A DNA stretch of 37,881 bases from assembly GCA_012033195.1 (NCBI GenBank), contig JAAUSQ010000012.1, positions 1 through 37,881 on the forward strand. The letters are read 5' to 3'. The translations under genes and the position numbers were made by a program. Origin of the DNA: Chloroflexaceae bacterium (GTDB lineage: Bacteria > Chloroflexota > Chloroflexia > Chloroflexales > Chloroflexaceae). Below, in pieces: positions 1,206-19,501 of the stretch. Under the pieces are notes generated by a model. That model was not told where the DNA came from, did no database searches, and saw only the letters and a program-made list of their open reading frames with translations. How positions within the stretch are numbered: the first letter of the stretch is position 1; the number at the start of each line of letters is the position of its first letter.

Positions 1206-1841
1206 GTGACATCGGAACAGGAAACACTACAGACCCTTGCAGCACAGATCAGTCAATGTACATTGTGTGCCCTACATCAGGGCCGTATTCGGGCCGTCCC
1301 CGGTGAGGGGCCTGCGGATGCCGAATTGATGTTGATTGGGGAGGGGCCAGGGTATCACGAGAATCGCCAGGGCCGCCCGTTTGTGGGGCCGTCAGGTCAA
1401 TTCCTGGATGAGTTGCTGGCAACCGCGCGGCTACGTCGGCAGGATGTCTTTATTGCCAATGTGGTGAAGTGCCGCCCGCCCGACAACCGCGACCCGCTGC
1501 CCAATGAAGTAGATACCTGTACGTCAACCTATCTGCACAAACAGATCGAACTGATTGATCCGAAGGTAATCGTAACACTGGGGCGCTATTCAATGGCACT
1601 CTTTTTTCCCAAAGAGAAGATTTCGAAAATTCATGGGCAACCCCGACGGATTGGCGGGCGCTTGATTGTGCCAATGATCCACCCTGCCGCCGCTTTGCAT
1701 CAGCCCAAAAACCGGGCACTGATCGAAGAAGATTTCCGCCGCCTGCCCGAGTTTCTGGCCCGCGCCGAGCACGCGGCCAGTCAGCCCGAATCGCCTGCCG
1801 ATGATGAGTCACCAGCCGCAGAACAGCTAAGTATGTTTTAA
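1206..1841 (+). CDS. Uracil-DNA glycosylase, family 4 (Fe-S type)
   Basis: CTLC near the N-terminus, GEGPGYHENRQGRPFVGPSG motif, VVKCRPPDNRDPLPNEVDTC cysteine pair, MIHPAA motif. Confidence 0.9.
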   Translation: MTSEQETLQTLAAQISQCTLCALHQGRIRAVPGEGPADAELMLIGEGPGYHENRQGRPFVGPSGQFLDELLATARLRRQDVFIANVVKCRPPDNRDPLPNEVDTCTSTYLHKQIELIDPKVIVTLGRYSMALFFPKEKISKIHGQPRRIGGRLIVPMIHPAAALHQPKNRALIEEDFRRLPEFLARAEHAASQPESPADDESPAAEQLSMF

Positions 1842-2458
1842 TGAAGACCTATCAACTCTCTGCTACCGGACGCCGAATGGCGCTTGTGCTTCTGCTTGCC
1901 GCCCTTGCTATCTGGGCCTTTGCGCTCTGGAGTTTTCGGAGTACGCTCAGCCTGGATTATAACCCGCTCAACCTGTGGCCCTCGTTGCAGGCCAGCATCG
2001 CGGCGGGCCTGACCGTCAGCCAGATTGTCCCAGCCCTGCTGATGCTGGTGCTGATTGTGGCAACGCCCCTGGTGATCTGGAACCTGCTGGAAGAGTGGGC
2101 CGCAAGCTACACCCCGACGGAAGAAGGGTTGCGCTTCAGTTCGCTTGGGGTCGATCTGGTTTACCCCTGGGTGGGTATCCAGGCGATTCGCCGGGTGGAC
2201 GATGACAGCAACGATCCGATGGACGAATTGATACTGGCCGAAGATTACACCGGCCAGATTACAAACCCGCTGCTGCGCTTCTTACACGGGCAGGCCTACG
2301 GACGGCGCACGTTGCCGCTGTATGCGGGCCTTGCCGACCGTGACGAGTTGCTGGAAACGATCCGGCAGTATACCGGCCTCGCTGCCGTGCCCGCCGCCGA
2401 ACTCGCTCCCGCCGATCCGGTCGCGCCGCAGCACCCAACCCAGGACACGCAGGTGTAG
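1841..2458 (+). CDS. Hypothetical membrane protein with two predicted TM segments
   Basis: ATG overlaps the UDG stop (taATG). Hydrophobic stretches MALVLLLAALAIWAFALW and IVPALLMLVLIVATPLVIW. Confidence 0.7.
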   Translation: MKTYQLSATGRRMALVLLLAALAIWAFALWSFRSTLSLDYNPLNLWPSLQASIAAGLTVSQIVPALLMLVLIVATPLVIWNLLEEWAASYTPTEEGLRFSSLGVDLVYPWVGIQAIRRVDDDSNDPMDELILAEDYTGQITNPLLRFLHGQAYGRRTLPLYAGLADRDELLETIRQYTGLAAVPAAELAPADPVAPQHPTQDTQV

Positions 2459-2460
2459 CT

Positions 2461-3636
2461 ATGGCACGAAAAGCAATTAAAGGACTTTATTATATTACTC
2501 ATATCGATAATCTTTCATCTATTTTGAAATGGGGTATCTTATCGCACGAATTAATAGAGCAGCAAAATATAAAGTATAGACCCATCTATGATCAGAATAT
2601 TGTTTCTCACCGCCAGCAACGACAGACTCCAGATGATAAGAGTCTGTGGTATTTTGCTAATTTGTATTTTCAACCTAGAAACCCTATGCTTTATCGTGTT
2701 TATGTAGGAGAAAATAGACGTGATATTGCAGTTGTCGAGATCAACCCAAAGGTATTAAATAAGCCTGGTGTCTATATAACAAATGGAAATGCAGCTAGCA
2801 ATGCATCAGATATATTTCCTGCTAAACAGGGTATTCAAGAAATAAATCAACTAAAAGAGATTCTGGATAAAGAATGGTGGAATTCAGATGATGGATCAAA
2901 ACGAAAAATTATGGCAGAATGTTTAGTTCCTGAATATGTTGATCCATCTTATATTACAGCTATTTACGTTCCAACTCATGAGGCTGTCAATAAATTAAAA
3001 GCATTATTACTTGGTAATACACTAGACATTATCCCAGAACCGTATATGTTTTTTGTGCCGCTTCAACGCACACAAATTACTCCTGTGTTTAATCTGGTTG
3101 AAGGAGATATGTTCTTCTCACGTGCTCAAACGCTGACAATCAGTGTTAATACTAAAGGAGTAATGGGCAAGGGGCTGGCAGCCAGAGCTAAATACCAGTT
3201 TCCTGATGTCTATGTGCGGTATCAGGAAGTGTGCCGTGGGCGAAATCCGCAACTAAAATTAAGTATACCTTATCTCTACAAAAGGGAGACTCCTATCGAT
3301 TATGATCTTGCTGATGCATCGAACATGCTTCCAGGAATTAATAATGAAAAATGGTTTTTATTGTTTGCAACAAAAGGACACTGGAAAGAGCAATCAGATC
3401 TGAGAAGTATAGAGCGAGGCTTGGAATGGATTTCTAAAAACTACCAACAAGAAGGTATCAAATCACTGGCTTTACCTGCATTAGGCTGCGGGTTGGGGGG
3501 ACTTGAATGGAGCGAGGTTGGCCCACTGATGTGTCGATACCTTGTAAACCTGAATATTTCGGTACGTATCTACCTTCCGAGAGAGAAAGAAATACCACCT
3601 GAACAACTTACGACAGATTTTTTGCTTGGTACCTAG
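2461..3636 (+). CDS. DarT-like DNA ADP-ribosyltransferase (DUF4433) fused to a DarG-like macrodomain
   Basis: N-terminal part: YYITHIDNLSSILKWGILSH, SLWYFANLYFQPRNPMLYRVY and MAECLVPEYV (candidate catalytic Glu153), as in DarT. C-terminal part from about residue 208: VFNLVEGDMF...VNTKGVMGKGLAARAKYQFPDVYVRYQEVC...FATKGHW...LALPALGCGLGGLEWSEV, as in the DarG macrodomain. One continuous 391-aa ORF. Confidence 0.85.
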   Translation: MARKAIKGLYYITHIDNLSSILKWGILSHELIEQQNIKYRPIYDQNIVSHRQQRQTPDDKSLWYFANLYFQPRNPMLYRVYVGENRRDIAVVEINPKVLNKPGVYITNGNAASNASDIFPAKQGIQEINQLKEILDKEWWNSDDGSKRKIMAECLVPEYVDPSYITAIYVPTHEAVNKLKALLLGNTLDIIPEPYMFFVPLQRTQITPVFNLVEGDMFFSRAQTLTISVNTKGVMGKGLAARAKYQFPDVYVRYQEVCRGRNPQLKLSIPYLYKRETPIDYDLADASNMLPGINNEKWFLLFATKGHWKEQSDLRSIERGLEWISKNYQQEGIKSLALPALGCGLGGLEWSEVGPLMCRYLVNLNISVRIYLPREKEIPPEQLTTDFLLGT

Positions 3637-3698
3637 TATCATTACGTAAAGCATTGTTTTATTGGAAGAATAATACACCATATGGTGATGGTAATGCT

Positions 3699-5378
3699 AT
3701 GACAACAGACAAACTACGATTACTCCCTCTGGGTGGCGCTGGCGAAGTCGGGCGCAATATGTGGGTGCTTGAGTACGCGGATGAGATCCTTATCCTCGAC
3801 TGTGGCGTGATGTTCCCCGAAGCCGATATGCTCGGTGTCGATCTGGTGCTGCCCGATATCACTTACCTGCGTGACCGGCTCGAAAAAATCCAGGGTATTC
3901 TGCTGACCCACGGCCACGAAGACCACGTCGGCGCAGTGCCCCACCTGATCGGCGACCTCGGCTACCCACCAATTTATGGCACACCGCTGACGCTGGGCAT
4001 TGTCAACGGCAAATTGAAAGAGCATCGCCTGCTCGATAAAGTTACCCGCATACCAATTGATGACAGCGACCCCTTCGAGGTGGGCAGCTTCATTGTGGAG
4101 CCGTTCCCGATTGCCCACTCCATCCCGGATGCCGTCGGCTTTGCAATCACTACTCCGGTCGGTATGGTAATCTACCTGACCGACTGGAAGTTTGATCACG
4201 CGCCCGTCGATGGTAAGCCCACCGATATTGCCAAGCTCGCCGAACTGGGTCGCCGCAAGCCGCTGCTGCTGGTAACCGACTGTGTGCGCGTTGAGTCGCG
4301 GGGCTACACGCCGAGTGAAACTACCGTCGGCGAGGCGTTTGATAACATCTTCGCTTCAGCACCGGGCCGCATCATCATCGCAACCTTTGCCTCCAACATC
4401 AGCCGCGTCCAGCAGGCGATTGACTCGGCGGAGGCGTATGGGCGCAAAATGGCACTGGTTGGGCGCAGTATGGAGAACAATAGCAAGGTTGCATTTGAGC
4501 TTGGCTTCCTGCACGCCGAACCGGGCCTGCTAATCCGTCCGCACGAGATGAACAGCCTGCCCGATGACGAGATAGCGGTTGTGTGTACAGGCAGCCAGGG
4601 TGAGCCGATGGCCGCCCTGAGCCGGATGTCCAACCGCGACTACCCGCATGTTAAGATCAAGCCGGGTGATACCGTGGTCTTCTCGGCAACACCTATTCCA
4701 GGCAACGAGGTATCAGTTAGCCAGGTGATTAACAACCTGTTCCGGCTCGGTGCCGATGTAATCTATGGCAGCGAGGCGGGTGTCCACGTATCGGGGCACG
4801 CGGCACAAGAAGAGCTGAAGATGCTCCTGGCATTGCTGCAACCGCAGTTTGTGGTGCCCTTCCACGGCGACTACCGCCACCTTGTGCTGTATCGCAAATT
4901 GGCGATGAATATGAGCACCCAGCACTATACCAGCGACAATGTGCTGCTGGCAGAAAACGGTGCCATCCTGGAGTTTGCGTCCGGCTATGGCGAAATCGTC
5001 GATAAAACCCAGGTTGGCTATATTTATGTGGATGGTACCACCGTGGGCGATGTAGGCAATGTGGTGGTGCGCGACCGTCAGATGCTCGCAAAAGACGGTA
5101 TCTTGATGGTGGTGGTGAGTGTTGAGCGTGCATCGGGCGAATTGCTAGCAGGGCCAGATATTGTCTCACGTGGCTTTGTCCATATGCGCCAGAGCACCGA
5201 CCTGATCGAGGCAACCAAAGAATCGGTACGTGAGGCACTGCTCAGCACCAACGGCAACGCCGAAACGCACCCCGATAGCGCATACATCAATCGTAAGATC
5301 AAGGATGCCGTGAGCGAGTTTCTCTACCGCGAGACCCGCCGCCGCCCGATGGTTATTCCGGTGGTGATGGAAGTCTAG
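3699..5378 (+). CDS. rnj: Ribonuclease J (metallo-beta-lactamase/beta-CASP)
   Basis: LPLGGAGEVGRNMWVLEY, THGHEDHVGAVPHL, FASNISRVQQ, TGSQGEPMAALSRM. Internal ATG at 3699 chosen because LRLLPLGG follows shortly after it. Confidence 0.92.
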   Translation: MTTDKLRLLPLGGAGEVGRNMWVLEYADEILILDCGVMFPEADMLGVDLVLPDITYLRDRLEKIQGILLTHGHEDHVGAVPHLIGDLGYPPIYGTPLTLGIVNGKLKEHRLLDKVTRIPIDDSDPFEVGSFIVEPFPIAHSIPDAVGFAITTPVGMVIYLTDWKFDHAPVDGKPTDIAKLAELGRRKPLLLVTDCVRVESRGYTPSETTVGEAFDNIFASAPGRIIIATFASNISRVQQAIDSAEAYGRKMALVGRSMENNSKVAFELGFLHAEPGLLIRPHEMNSLPDDEIAVVCTGSQGEPMAALSRMSNRDYPHVKIKPGDTVVFSATPIPGNEVSVSQVINNLFRLGADVIYGSEAGVHVSGHAAQEELKMLLALLQPQFVVPFHGDYRHLVLYRKLAMNMSTQHYTSDNVLLAENGAILEFASGYGEIVDKTQVGYIYVDGTTVGDVGNVVVRDRQMLAKDGILMVVVSVERASGELLAGPDIVSRGFVHMRQSTDLIEATKESVREALLSTNGNAETHPDSAYINRKIKDAVSEFLYRETRRRPMVIPVVMEV

Positions 5379-7847: not shown

Positions 7848-8040
7848 CCCGCTGGCAACCATATCGTTGCTAAAACCAATTTGATGACAACTGGTGCCGC
7901 CTGTCTCCGGGTGAATATGCTATAGTGACAAGAGGGGGCAACAGTTTGTATCCATGTGTATATCGCACTGTTATCGTTCCCCGCCTGCAACCACATCTAT
8001 CCGCAGTATCTACAATTGCATAATGGAAGAAAGGAGCACC

Positions 8041-10075
8041 ATGGGAATTGCAGCCGATATTGCTATTATTCTGGTGGCGGCACTCATCGGGGGCTTAATT
8101 GCGCAACGGCTTGGGCAACCGCTCATTCTGGGGTACATCCTGGCCGGCGTGCTGGTTGGTCCCCACACAGGCGGCGTCACAGTCACCGATATTCACAACA
8201 TTGAACTGCTGGCAGAAATTGGCGTGGCGCTGTTGCTGTTTGCACTGGGGCTTGAGTTTTCGCTGAAAGACTTGCAGCCGGTGCGAAGCATTGCCTTGAT
8301 TGGTACCCCGATCCAGATGGCGCTGACGATTGCGTTCGGCTTCGGCATCGGTCAATTGCTGTTCGGGTGGGACTGGCAGACGGCGCTATGGTTCGGTGCG
8401 CTGCTGTCGCTCTCCAGCACAATGGTCATTCTCAAGACGCTAAGCGCCCAGGGAGTAATAGGCACGCTTGCCAGCCGTGTGATGATTGGCATGCTGATTG
8501 TGCAAGATCTGGCCGTAGTACCGCTGATGATCTTGCTGCCCGCCCTCAACGATATCGAGCAGAGCTTGCCCGTGCTTGGCTGGGCGCTGCTGCGCGCCGT
8601 GCTCTTCTGCCGCTATGATCTTCATCGGCACGCGTGTGATGCCGTGGCTACTGCGGGTCATTGCCGGGTGGCGTTCGCGGGAGTTGTTTCTGGTGGCAGT
8701 GGTGGCGCTCGGTGTGGGCATCGGCTACGGCACCTACCTGTTTGGTCTGTCGTTTGCCTTTGGTGCCTTTGTTGCCGGTATCGTGCTCAGCGAGTCCGAC
8801 TATAGCCATCAGGCGCTCAGCGATGTGATACCGCTGCGCGATGTGTTTGGAATGCTGTTTTTTGTCTCGGTGGGCATGCTGCTCGATCCAGTATTCTTGT
8901 TCAATAATCTGGGGTTGGTCTTAACAGCCGTCGTGGTGGTGGTTATAGGCAAGGCGCTGATCTTTGTGGGTATTACGCGGGCCTTTGGTTATGGCAACAG
9001 TGCGCCGTTTGTGGTGGGGTTGGGGATGTTCCAGGTCGGTGAATTCTCGTTTGTACTGGCCCGCACCGGAGTGAGCACAAACGCAATCTCGAACGATTTG
9101 TATGCGCTGGTGCTGGCGGTTGCCGTGGTAACCATGGTACTAACACCATTTGCCTCGCGTCTCGCCGTGCCGCTATACAATCGCTGGCGCGTGTATCGCC
9201 CCCGCGAAACCCTCAGCACCTTTAATGTAACCAGCGATAGCTTACACGACCATGTGATTGTAGCGGGCTATGGACGAGCCGGACGCGCTGCAACAATGGT
9301 GATGGAGCGGGTCGGATTGTCGTATGTAGTCGTTGAAATCGATCAGCGCACCGTTGATCATGCCCAGGCCAACGGGGTACCCATTGTTTTTGGTGATGCG
9401 ACCAGTGCAGTTGTGCTGGAAGCGGCAGGTGTTCACACGGCACGGCTGCTGCTCGTCAGTGTGCCCGATGCGCTGGATGTGCAGTTGATCGCCAGTCGGG
9501 TACGCGAACTCAATCCCAAACTGCTGATTGTGGCGCGTGCGGCAGGCGTGGAACAGCTCAACGACTTAAAGCGGCTTGGTGTCCACGAGGTGGTACAACC
9601 CGAACTCGAAGCAGGGCTGGAAATGGTGCGGCAGGTGCTGGTCCAGTTCCATATCAGCCCGACCGATATTCAGCGCTTCAGCGACACGGTCCACGAGGAG
9701 CTTTATGCACCGCTGTACGCGGTAGATGGTGATGGCAGCCGCCAGCCGACCCGCACCAACCGCCTGCTGCAACAGTTGCGCCACGCCAGCCATGCGCTCC
9801 GCATCGAGTGGGTGACGCTGCCCGCCGAGAGCAGCCTGGTGGGGCAAACCCTGCGCGATGCAGCCATACGCCAGCATACAGGCGCTTCGGTGGTGGCAAT
9901 TATTCGGCATAACACGGTGGTGCCCAACCCGCCGTCGCACTATCGCCTGAATGCGGGCGACACACTGGCGGTACTCGGCACGGTTGAGCAGGAACAGGCA
10001 TTCCATACGCTGATCCACAATGGCGCAGATGATGTGCAGCAAGTGGCAATCGACGAGGAGGCGCTGCGGTCGTGA
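8041..10075 (+). pseudogene. Kef-type K+/H+ antiporter with TrkA-N/TrkA-C domains, split by a 1-nt frame break near 8608
   Basis: Upstream frame [42 protein letters not shown]...WALLRAVLF; downstream frame [20 protein letters not shown]...VIVAGYGRAGRAATMVMERVGLSYVVVEIDQ. Skipping T8608 joins them as VLF-AAMIF. Confidence 0.8.
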
Positions 10076-10127: not shown

Positions 10128-10763
10128 TCAACATGCACGCGGCGCAACACCATAACGCAGCCAGTAGTAGGGCAGCTTGAGATACTCGGCAAGCACGACC
10201 TGCCGTGTGTCCGGTTCGCGCCACCAGTTGCCTGGCCCATAACGCGCAGGTGGCGGCTCATAATAGATGGCAATATCCTGGTCGGCAAGGTGCCGCTGTA
10301 CCACACACAACGCCCGTCGACTGTGGTACCAGTCCGTCACCAGCAAAATACTATCGGTGTTTTGTTCGGCGGCCTGCGCTGCGATTGCCGCGCCATCTTC
10401 CCAGGTGCTGGTTGTTTCAAGCAGCACGATCACATCAGCCGGAATGCCACTCGCGATGGCCTTCTGCCGCGCTGCCCGTGCAAAGTACGATACCTCTTCA
10501 GCGGGCGATACCGCGCCCGTGTGCCAGAAGCGCGGCGCAAACCCCTCGTGATACAGGGTAATGCCGTGCTCGCTGCGCCGGGTTGCGCCGCCCAGTACCA
10601 CAATCGCATCGGCCTTGTGCAGGCGGCTCGGCTGCGCCAGCCAGTGCCCCATTGCAGGCAGCCACGTTTCAGCCGTCAGCAGCGCAACCGCCGCTATCGT
10701 TAGCAGCGGCACCCCCAACCGCAGCAGTCGGCGCAGCCAGCGCTTTTGTAGTCGAATGCTCAA
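10128..10763 (-). CDS. YdcF/DUF218-like membrane-anchored protein
   Basis: ADAIVVLGGATRRSEHGITLYHEGFAPRFWHTG and LVTDWYHSRRA motifs; N-terminal TM. Confidence 0.8.
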   Translation of the reverse strand: MSIRLQKRWLRRLLRLGVPLLTIAAVALLTAETWLPAMGHWLAQPSRLHKADAIVVLGGATRRSEHGITLYHEGFAPRFWHTGAVSPAEEVSYFARAARQKAIASGIPADVIVLLETTSTWEDGAAIAAQAAEQNTDSILLVTDWYHSRRALCVVQRHLADQDIAIYYEPPPARYGPGNWWREPDTRQVVLAEYLKLPYYWLRYGVAPRAC

Positions 10764-11966
10764 GCGGCGCTCGTCTCTAGAATAGCGGCCTGAAGATGCT
10801 CACACACATAATCAACCTGCGCTTCGGTCATCACGCCCGAAAAGGGCAGCGCCAGCGACACTGCACCCAGCCGCTCGGTGACGGGAAAATCGCCCGGCTG
10901 ATAGCCGAACATATCGCGGTAGAACGGCTGCAAATGGATCGGCGTGAAGTAGGGGCGGCTCGGAATGCCCACCTCGGCCAGCCGTTGCATCAGGTCGTCG
11001 CGGCTAGCCGGTGGCCGAACACGCACTACATACACAAACCAGCTCATCCGTGTGGTGGAGGGTGCAATATGTGGCCGCTCAATCAGGTCAATCTCGGCGA
11101 GGCGCTCGTTGTACCAATCGGCAACCTGCGCCCGCTTGGTCAGCAGTGCTTCGATGCGCTGGATCTGCACCAGCCCCATAGCGGCGCTCATCTCATCCAG
11201 GCGGTAGTTGTAGCCCAGGCGGGTATGGTTCAGCCATGCATTAAACACATCACGCCCCTGGTTTCGCATGCTCCGGAAGAGCATATCCCAGTCGGTGTGG
11301 TTCGTCAGGATCATGCCTCCCTCACCAGTGGTCATCTGTTTGTTGGGATAAAAAGCAAAGACCGCTGCATCACTCAGCGTGCCCGCACTGCGCCCCTTGT
11401 ATTCGGCTCCAATTGCCTCGCATGCATCTTCAATCACCCCCAGATTGTACGCTCGCGCCACCGCCAGCAGCGGGTCCATATCGGCGGGTTGCCCGAATGC
11501 ATGCACGGGCAGCAGCCCCTTCAGCCGCCCCGATGGAACCGCCTGCCGTCCATCGCGCAGGGCCGGTGGGGAGCCATTGTCCGGCTGCGCTGGTGTATGC
11601 GCCATCTGCCAGGTCTGCGGCGGCGGCGGCGACTAGGGCCGGGTCGATGTTGCCTGTCAGCGGGTCAACATCGACAAAGACCGGAACAGCTCGCTCATAC
11701 AGGATGCAGTTTGCCGAGGCGATGAACGAGAACGGTGTGGTAATCACCATATCGCCCGCCGCGACACCTGCCGCGATGACACAGAGATGCAGGCCACTGG
11801 TGCCCGAATTGACCCCGGCGGCGTGCCGGGTACCAACATAGGCGGCAAAAGCCTCTTCAAATGCGGTGAGCCGGGGGCCAATACTGAGATACGATGTTCT
11901 GACAACCTCGTTTACGGCTTCAATCTCGGCGTGGGTCAGGTCGGGCGAAGACATTGGAATATGCAT
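10760..11966 (-). pseudogene. DegT/DnrJ/EryC1/StrS aminotransferase, split by a frame break near 11605-11635
   Basis: N-terminal frame MHIPMSSPDLTHAEIEAVNEVVRTSYLSIGPRLTAFEEAFAAYVGTRHAAGVNSGTSGLHL; C-terminal frame LPVHAFGQPADMDPLLAVARAYNLGVIEDACEAIGAEYKG...YPNKQMTTGEGGMI. Confidence 0.85.
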
Positions 11967-18343: not shown

Positions 18344-19501
18344 CTACCGCCGCACCAGCCTCTGCCGGGTTACGTCCTGCGTCTGGCGCAACACCTGATC
18401 GTAGACCGCCACCGTTTCGCGGGCCATCTTCTGCCACGAGAACTGCTGTACACGGGCCGTCCCGCGTTGGCGCAATGTGGCGGCGGCATTGCTATCGGTC
18501 AAAACGCTGTGCAGGTTCGCCGCCAATCCGTCGATATCGTCCGGCTGCGAAAGCAGCGCCGCATCGCCCACCACTTCGGGAATTGCGCCGCCGCGTGTTG
18601 CCACCACGGGCGTACCGTGCAGCATTGCTTCGAGTGGCGGCCAGCCAAAGCCCTCGTAGGCCGAAGGGAACACAAACACATCAGCGAGCGCCATCAGCGC
18701 CAGCATATCGTCGCGTGGCACATACCCCGGCAGGTACACCCGCTGCCCTAGGCCAAGCGCACGCACGGTGTCGCGCACAATGTCTGTCGCCGAAGCCATC
18801 GCTCCCCGCTAATATCAGCTTGACATCGGGCACAGCGGCGGCAATCTGCTTAAAGGCCTGCACCAGCGGCACCAGATTTTTGCGGTGTGTGATGGTGCCC
18901 ACAACAGCACAAACCGCTCGCCGGTCTGGTAGGTGTGCCGCAGCGCTGTCTGCTGTGCGGTATCGGGTGGGCTGTCGTGGTCGTTGCGGTCGATGCCGTG
19001 ATGCACCACCGCGATCCGTTCCCGCTCAATCCCGAACAGCCTAACTAGATCATCGGCGGTGTGCTGCGAAATCGAGATCAAACGGCTCGCCCGCTGGAGT
19101 GCATGCCGCAGCGCTGCCCGAAACACAAGCCGTGCTGTGGGTTTGTAGTGGTCGGGAAAGTGAATCGGCGACAGGTCGTGAATAGTCACAACGAGCGGGC
19201 GGTGGGTGTGCAGCGGCATCGGCACCAGCGCATGCACCAGGTCGGTCTGTTGCCCGATCCAGAAGGGCGAAGGCAGGTTCGCCAGCCAGAGCAACTCGTT
19301 CAGGCGGCGCGGCCCGCCCACGTGCTGATAGTGCAGGTTGCTGGCGGGTGCCACGTCGGGTGTGGCGGTACGGGTTGCCAGCGCCGCGAAGTCAATATCG
19401 GGCGCGACGATGGGCACATGTTCCAGTACCCGATTGATATAGATCCCAATGCCGGTGGGCTTGCGGCGGTCAAGTCGATCTGCAAACAGCGAAATATGCA
19501 T
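18344..19501 (-). pseudogene. Glycosyltransferase family 4, broken by two frame breaks (about 18900 and about 18820)
   Basis: Three consecutive frames together give one GT4: MHISLFADRLDRRKPTGIGIYINRVLEH...ERFVLL / VGTITHRKNLVPLVQAFKQIAAAVPDVKLILAGSDGFG / TDIVRDTVRALGLGQRVYLPGYVPRDDMLALMALADVFVFPSAYEGFGWPPLEAM. Confidence 0.85.

Follow-up and report, generated by a model that had tools for sequence, protein, structure and literature searches.

A single-chain fusion of a DarT ADP-ribosyltransferase with a DarG-type macrodomain in a Chloroflexaceae bacterium

Described DarT systems and the fused gene

The two-gene DarTG2 systems of Thermus, EPEC and M. tuberculosis ADP-ribosylate thymidine in single-stranded DNA, a modification that is reversed by the macrodomain of DarG. 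DarG restrains DarT in two ways, namely by erasing the mark and by placing a C-terminal plug in the DNA groove. Work on the EPEC pair has demonstrated that the macrodomain alone halts DarT toxicity in vivo and that its Lys mutant fails, that full-length DarG with the Lys mutation is still protective through its C-terminal domain, and that the macrodomain binds DarT weakly, the sequestering activity being located in the C-terminal domain (PMC7003065). In M. tuberculosis, reversible DNA ADP-ribosylation by the two-gene system has been reported to act as a switch of replication and transcription (PMC12170906), and the fate of the DarT-DarG balance of two-gene systems during phage infection has been described as yet to be determined (PMC11481870). 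DarTG1 shares the DarT fold and combines DarT1 with an eraser of the NADAR type. A toxin and an antitoxin within one chain are found in CapRel, which senses a phage protein. The two CapRel domains differ from those of a DarT-macrodomain fusion, in which the antitoxin half belongs to a family of enzymes that undo the modification. The closest described system is a single-chain protein from Thermosipho africanus, released on 2021-06-23 under the title "Thermosipho africanus DarTG in complex with ADP-ribose" (PDB 7omu), with the protein itself deposited as "Macro domain-containing protein".

The gene reported here lies near the beginning of a Chloroflexaceae DNA stretch of 37,881 nucleotides, in the following called the window, and is a single uninterrupted frame of 391 aa, from ATG to TAG without an internal stop, that joins a DarT ADP-ribosyltransferase to a DarG-type macrodomain (Table 1). 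A sequence-only reading had proposed this fusion together with a set of motifs and residues, Glu153 and Lys305 among them, and all of these have been located where that reading had placed them. The profile searches it had called for have matched both families, including Pfam Macro (PF01661, residues 304-354, E 3e-6) and the PADLOC profile of DarT (6e-36). The scores of the NCBIfam profiles are 96 bits for DarT (naming cut-off 150) and 133 bits for DarG (cut-off 250), and thus both stay below the cut-off. The DarG match (residues 212-377) covers only positions 3-152 of the 338 profile positions, and consequently the fusion lacks the second half of DarG; no other DarG match has been found in the same assembly, which is 87% complete. 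Intact full-length fused relatives have the same extent, as they comprise 381-422 aa (most of them 387-398) and end just past the macrodomain without the DarG C-terminal domain. The loss of this DarT-binding domain is the key structural difference to the two-gene systems, and it had been missed in the sequence-only reading.

Table 1. Coordinates of the fused gene, its parts and other genes in the window.
Feature	Position	Strand	Evidence or remark
Uracil-DNA glycosylase, upstream	1206-1841	+	PF03167 4.4e-37; insertion flank
Membrane protein of 205 aa, upstream	1841-2458	+	ends 2 bases before the fusion ATG; insertion flank
Fused DarT-macrodomain gene	2461-3636	+	open frame; Pfam, NCBIfam and PADLOC matches to DarT and DarG; 7omu E 5e-140
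DarT-type ADP-ribosyltransferase domain, residues 10-192	2488-3036	+	PF14487 6.4e-48
Arg51, counterpart of DarT2 R51 (proton abstraction)	2611-2613	+	7omv alignment; Arg in 85/86; role PMC11543638
Tyr69, aligned with DarT2 Y71 (contacts nicotinamide; DarT1 has Ser)	2665-2667	+	7omv alignment; Tyr in 84/86
Asn110, at the position that coordinates the target base (Thermus DarT2 His119, DarT1 Asn104)	2788-2790	+	alignments; Asn in 84/86
Glu153, catalytic transferase glutamate	2917-2919	+	Glu in 86/86; aligns with Ala of the 7omu construct
Domain join, residues 193-210	3037-3090	+	between profile matches; high-confidence model, no disordered linker
DarG/TARG1-type macrodomain, residues 211-377	3091-3591	+	NCBIfam DarG 1.2e-38; PADLOC DarG 2e-41; 5m31/5m3i matches
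Lys305, counterpart of DarG K80 (glycohydrolase lysine)	3373-3375	+	Lys in 86/86
RNase J, downstream	3654-5378	+	RNase_J_b_CASP 3.1e-50; other insertion flank
Na+/H+ antiporter with TrkA domains, split	7954-10075	+	two frames, complementary family parts
Exopolysaccharide/glycosylation-like cluster	10128-36296	-	judged by eye from translations
DegT-type aminotransferase, split	10760-11966	-	two frames, complementary family parts
Group 4 glycosyltransferase, split	18344-19501	-	two frames, complementary family parts

The search of solved structures has aligned residues 7-390 of the fusion colinearly with 7omu at 55% identity, and a template-free AlphaFold2 model (pLDDT 89, pTM 0.83), a prediction likewise proposed by the sequence-only reading, superposes on the crystal structure with TM-scores of 0.91/0.94 and an rmsd of 1.8 A over 385 columns. 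According to the model, both domains are packed as in 7omu, without a floppy linker. The Thermosipho protein also lacks the DarG C-terminal domain; it differs in its host and, in the crystallised construct, by an Ala at the position of the catalytic Glu. This type of fusion has therefore been known and crystallised since 2021, the Chloroflexaceae copy is another member of the 7omu family, and the novelty implied by the sequence-only reading is not supported. The family is easily overlooked, as the scores of the present member are below the NCBIfam naming cut-offs and the crystallised member carries a generic deposit name.

An assembly or frameshift artefact has been ruled out, since the fusion is likewise uninterrupted in 86 relatives, though three other genes of the contig are cut by frameshifts, and a chance join is excluded by the full-length colinear homology to 7omu and by 80 genome loci. 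The three split genes, encoding the antiporter, the aminotransferase and the glycosyltransferase, are probably the result of sequencing or assembly frameshifts. An internal start that would yield a free macrodomain is unsupported, given that Met217 is conserved to 88% and Met196 to 67%, and that the invariant Met235, whose conservation is probably structural, is located inside the macrodomain. No promoter or terminator signal above the shuffled expectation has been detected around the fused gene.

Active sites and selection

The two halves retain the catalytic equipment of two-gene DarTG2. The transferase half belongs to the same family and possesses the DarT2-type Arg51, Tyr69 and Glu153, and the second half is a macrodomain of the same TARG1/DarG-like type, in which Lys305 takes the position of the catalytic Lys known from DarG macrodomains (residue roles according to PMC11543638 and PMC9967889). 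Met76, Glu153, Asn230, Lys305 and Trp308 are invariant in the alignment of all 86 fused proteins, and Arg51, Tyr69 and Asn110 are nearly so. The position of Glu153 is occupied by Ala in the crystallised 7omu chain and by Glu in the wild-type Thermosipho relative L037, which supports its assignment as the catalytic residue. As judged from these residues, the fusion appears compatible with the DarTG2 reaction, i.e., thymidine ADP-ribosylation in single-stranded DNA and its reversal by the macrodomain. The Asn at the base-contacting position speaks against thymine in so far as it is shared with the guanine-specific DarT1; however, the thymidine enzyme of M. tuberculosis likewise has an Asn at this position, and consequently Asn110 does not decide on the target base. 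The identity as a guanine-type DarT1 is disfavoured by the macrodomain, which takes the place of NADAR, and by Tyr69, which corresponds to Ser63 in DarT1.

Both halves are under purifying selection. Over 53 close pairs, which share branches and are thus non-independent, the mean dN/dS is about 0.14 in the DarT half and 0.09 in the macrodomain half. In one pair of low divergence (L038/L056), the value of the DarT half is as high as 0.85.

Insertion site, distribution and neighbourhoods

The genome is most likely of the Chloroflexaceae type, since relatives that bear its family code yield proteins identical to those in named Viridilinea and Chloroflexus records. The glycosylase, the membrane protein and RNase J that surround the gene are insertion flanks and stand outside the DarT-macrodomain system. 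Their order has been found free of the fusion in 27 of the 30 family loci examined, and one further locus (L217) exhibits the same flank order with a larger gap. Among these 30 loci, a fusion between the membrane protein and RNase J has been observed only in the window genome and in G025. The G+C content of the fused gene is 38%, compared with 57% for the window, whose lowest-G+C kilobase it holds. The gene is thus a single-gene insertion beside RNase J and has most likely been acquired horizontally. The copy at the identical site in G025:C5 (L007, L204, L263) is 54% identical and has a G+C content of 51%, and the two copies may represent separate acquisitions, that is, repeated insertion at one site. 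No defence island has been seen in the window, in which the neighbours are exopolysaccharide and housekeeping genes; the long cluster on the reverse strand (Table 1) comprises glycosyltransferases, aminotransferases, and flippase-like and chain-length-like proteins.

A genome scan has returned 80 full-length or nearly full-length loci with 46-58% identity to the fusion. Together with further relatives, these constitute the 86 aligned proteins, in which a few genomes are duplicated (e.g., L002/L009). By assignment, the proteins span at least 20 phyla and extend to the archaea, although many copies come from metagenome-assembled genomes, so that phylum assignments based on a single genome carry a binning risk. 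One such Nitrosopumilus genome carries the fusion twice, at near-identical loci on separate contigs (L076 and L077). In one sample of Chloroflexota, 12 of 399 genomes harbour a full-length fused copy, one of which has an internal TAG; in a separate sample, DarT has been detected in 39 of 251 genomes. Thirty Chloroflexota DarT loci have been examined, the viral L119 being left out, and consist of 8 fused genes, 17 pairs with a DarG frame of 346-429 aa, one pair with a short macrodomain partner of 218 aa, and 4 others (no macrodomain on the fetched flank, contig end, or no match to the profiles used). The rarity implied by the sequence-only reading is not supported, as the fusion occurs in a wide range of phyla.

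In phylogenetic trees of the two domains, all 75 fused sequences fall on one side of a branch (support 88/91 in the DarT tree, 100/100 in the macrodomain tree) and thereby form a clade distinct from two-gene DarTG2. The Thermosipho copy L037 is situated in the same clade as the copy of the window, and an independent fusion in the lineage of the window is ruled out by the single fused clade in both trees. Among the split sequences, all of them from Chloroflexota, the nearest relatives in the macrodomain tree are L111-L113, so that the placement of the sister group is provisional. Phyla are mixed within the fused tree, in which Chloroflexota requires at least 8 changes and the starred branches force at least 4. 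The simplest reading of these trees would be a single fusion event with loss of the DarG C-terminal domain, followed by horizontal spread as one gene. Only a single fused copy has been found in IMG/VR, where split DarTG pairs occur several times. The phage record MT837167, at 94% coverage a candidate for a second fusion, has proven to encode two separate proteins of 215 and 346 aa, and the viral-contig matches L123, L139, L147, L150 and L196 are all split pairs with full-length DarG.

Beside the fused genes, no partner gene is shared across phyla. In Nostocales the synteny is conserved, with a protein kinase gene immediately preceding the fusion and 6-phosphogluconate dehydrogenase following it, and in Poribacteria two fixed gene settings have been recognised. 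In several Nostocales (L049:4643-5812 and relatives), the Ser/Thr protein kinase gene abuts the beginning of the fusion, and a functional link between the two is possible. On an IMG/VR contig (L120:1-5763), the fused gene immediately precedes a type III-like methyltransferase, a restriction helicase and a TnsA-like nuclease; one Poribacteria group (L052) has type ISP restriction-modification genes next to the fused copies, and other copies adjoin housekeeping genes. These neighbourhoods, including the PADLOC neighbour tally, have no matched control and are anecdotal, and no enrichment is claimed.

Restraint of the transferase half and possible roles

The analysis establishes the domain identity, the intact active sites, the lack of the second DarG domain, the single origin with horizontal spread and the purifying selection on the two halves; both enzyme activities, the target base, the gating and the role of the protein are inferred. 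The fusion is probably a horizontally acquired, self-erasing module of the DarTG2 type that is restrained by macrodomain erasure, with phage defence as its most likely function and a replication brake as the second. The DarT half would move ADP-ribose from NAD+ onto a base of single-stranded DNA, in all likelihood thymine, and the macrodomain half would strip the mark by means of Lys305. Because the fusion is devoid of the C-terminal domain that binds and blocks DarT in the two-gene systems, control would have to rest on the macrodomain, and erasure would be the only restraint, at a fixed ratio of 1:1. Restraint by erasure is favoured, as the EPEC macrodomain suffices catalytically and the entire fused family is without the C-terminal domain. 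In the ordinary state, background marks would be erased, whereas a rise of single-stranded DNA, caused by phage replication or fork stalling, or an inhibition of the eraser would let marks accumulate and block replication. The output would hence be determined by the single-stranded DNA and NAD+ met by the DarT half relative to the capacity of the eraser. The profile matches, the agreement with 7omu, the intact active sites, the uniform protein lengths, the purifying selection, the anatomy of the insertion, the low G+C content and the restriction-modification neighbours of some relatives count in favour of this self-erasing module, as do the broken alleles described below, of which there are very few; against it stand the window without a defence island and the one fused copy in IMG/VR.

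The covalent 1:1 link bears out the argument of the sequence-only reading that a cis-linked writer and eraser cannot make use of differential antitoxin turnover in the usual way. With the C-terminal plug also gone, two usual answers to the question of activation, antitoxin degradation and removal of the plug, are taken away together, which makes the fusion a minimal, naturally occurring model in which to ask if DarT is held back by erasure alone and if it can be triggered by substrate load alone. The protein may be a conditionally gated DNA-modification switch or a phage sensor, as had been proposed; a role as a switch is not unique to the fusion, since it has been reported for the two-gene M. 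tuberculosis DarTG. In a further reading that we put forward tentatively and regard as rather doubtful, the fused family would be a defence device independent of proteolysis, set only by single-stranded DNA and NAD+ versus ADP-ribose, which fires on the single-stranded DNA of replicating phages without any dedicated sensor and has spread through bacteria and archaea as one gene.

The packing of both domains in one defined arrangement, common with the 7omu crystal at 55% identity, and the conservation of F197, F198, G215 and D216 around the join among fused relatives could also be expected from an intramolecular lock, in which the macrodomain mainly holds DarT closed until a phage or host ligand releases it, as described for CapRel, and Lys305 serves recovery and not restraint. 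Fused toxin-antitoxins triggered by phage proteins are known (PMC13423816). A lock is nevertheless unlikely, as the EPEC macrodomain binds DarT weakly and the sequestering C-terminal domain is absent here (PMC7003065), and as the hydrolase active site is fully conserved throughout the 86 proteins, which argues that catalysis matters. The synteny in Nostocales and in the two Poribacteria groups, without cross-phylum defence partners, suggests long vertical maintenance in some lineages, which would suit a housekeeping function as well as defence. The housekeeping alternative is a vertically kept regulator that, under stress, would place its mark on replication origins or promoters and would have no main anti-phage role. 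The missing defence island and the M. tuberculosis precedent (PMC12170906) agree with such a regulator. We consider it quite improbable for the window, given that the patchy occurrence within its own family, the low G+C content, the empty site in 27 relatives and the phylum-mixing gene tree are of the accessory type.

The broken alleles in some Chloroflexaceae could point to a decayed or selfish remnant, i.e., an addiction gene retained only since loss of the eraser kills, and purifying selection on both halves together with the intact key catalytic residues of 86 relatives renders this reading very improbable compared with the self-erasing module. In G021, a TAG in the DarT half replaces a conserved Trp and the remainder is open; in G019, the fused copy is decayed in both halves. 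None of the interrupted alleles seen, of which there are very few, retains its DarT half while the macrodomain is broken, a pattern that would be expected from a DarT toxic by itself. A degenerate DarT remnant is all that is left in G277. On a 4.2-kb contig of G044 that contains no DarT, a free-standing macrodomain of 198 aa (L260:2609-3205, reverse strand) has been identified as a relative of the fused type and is possibly an orphan eraser.
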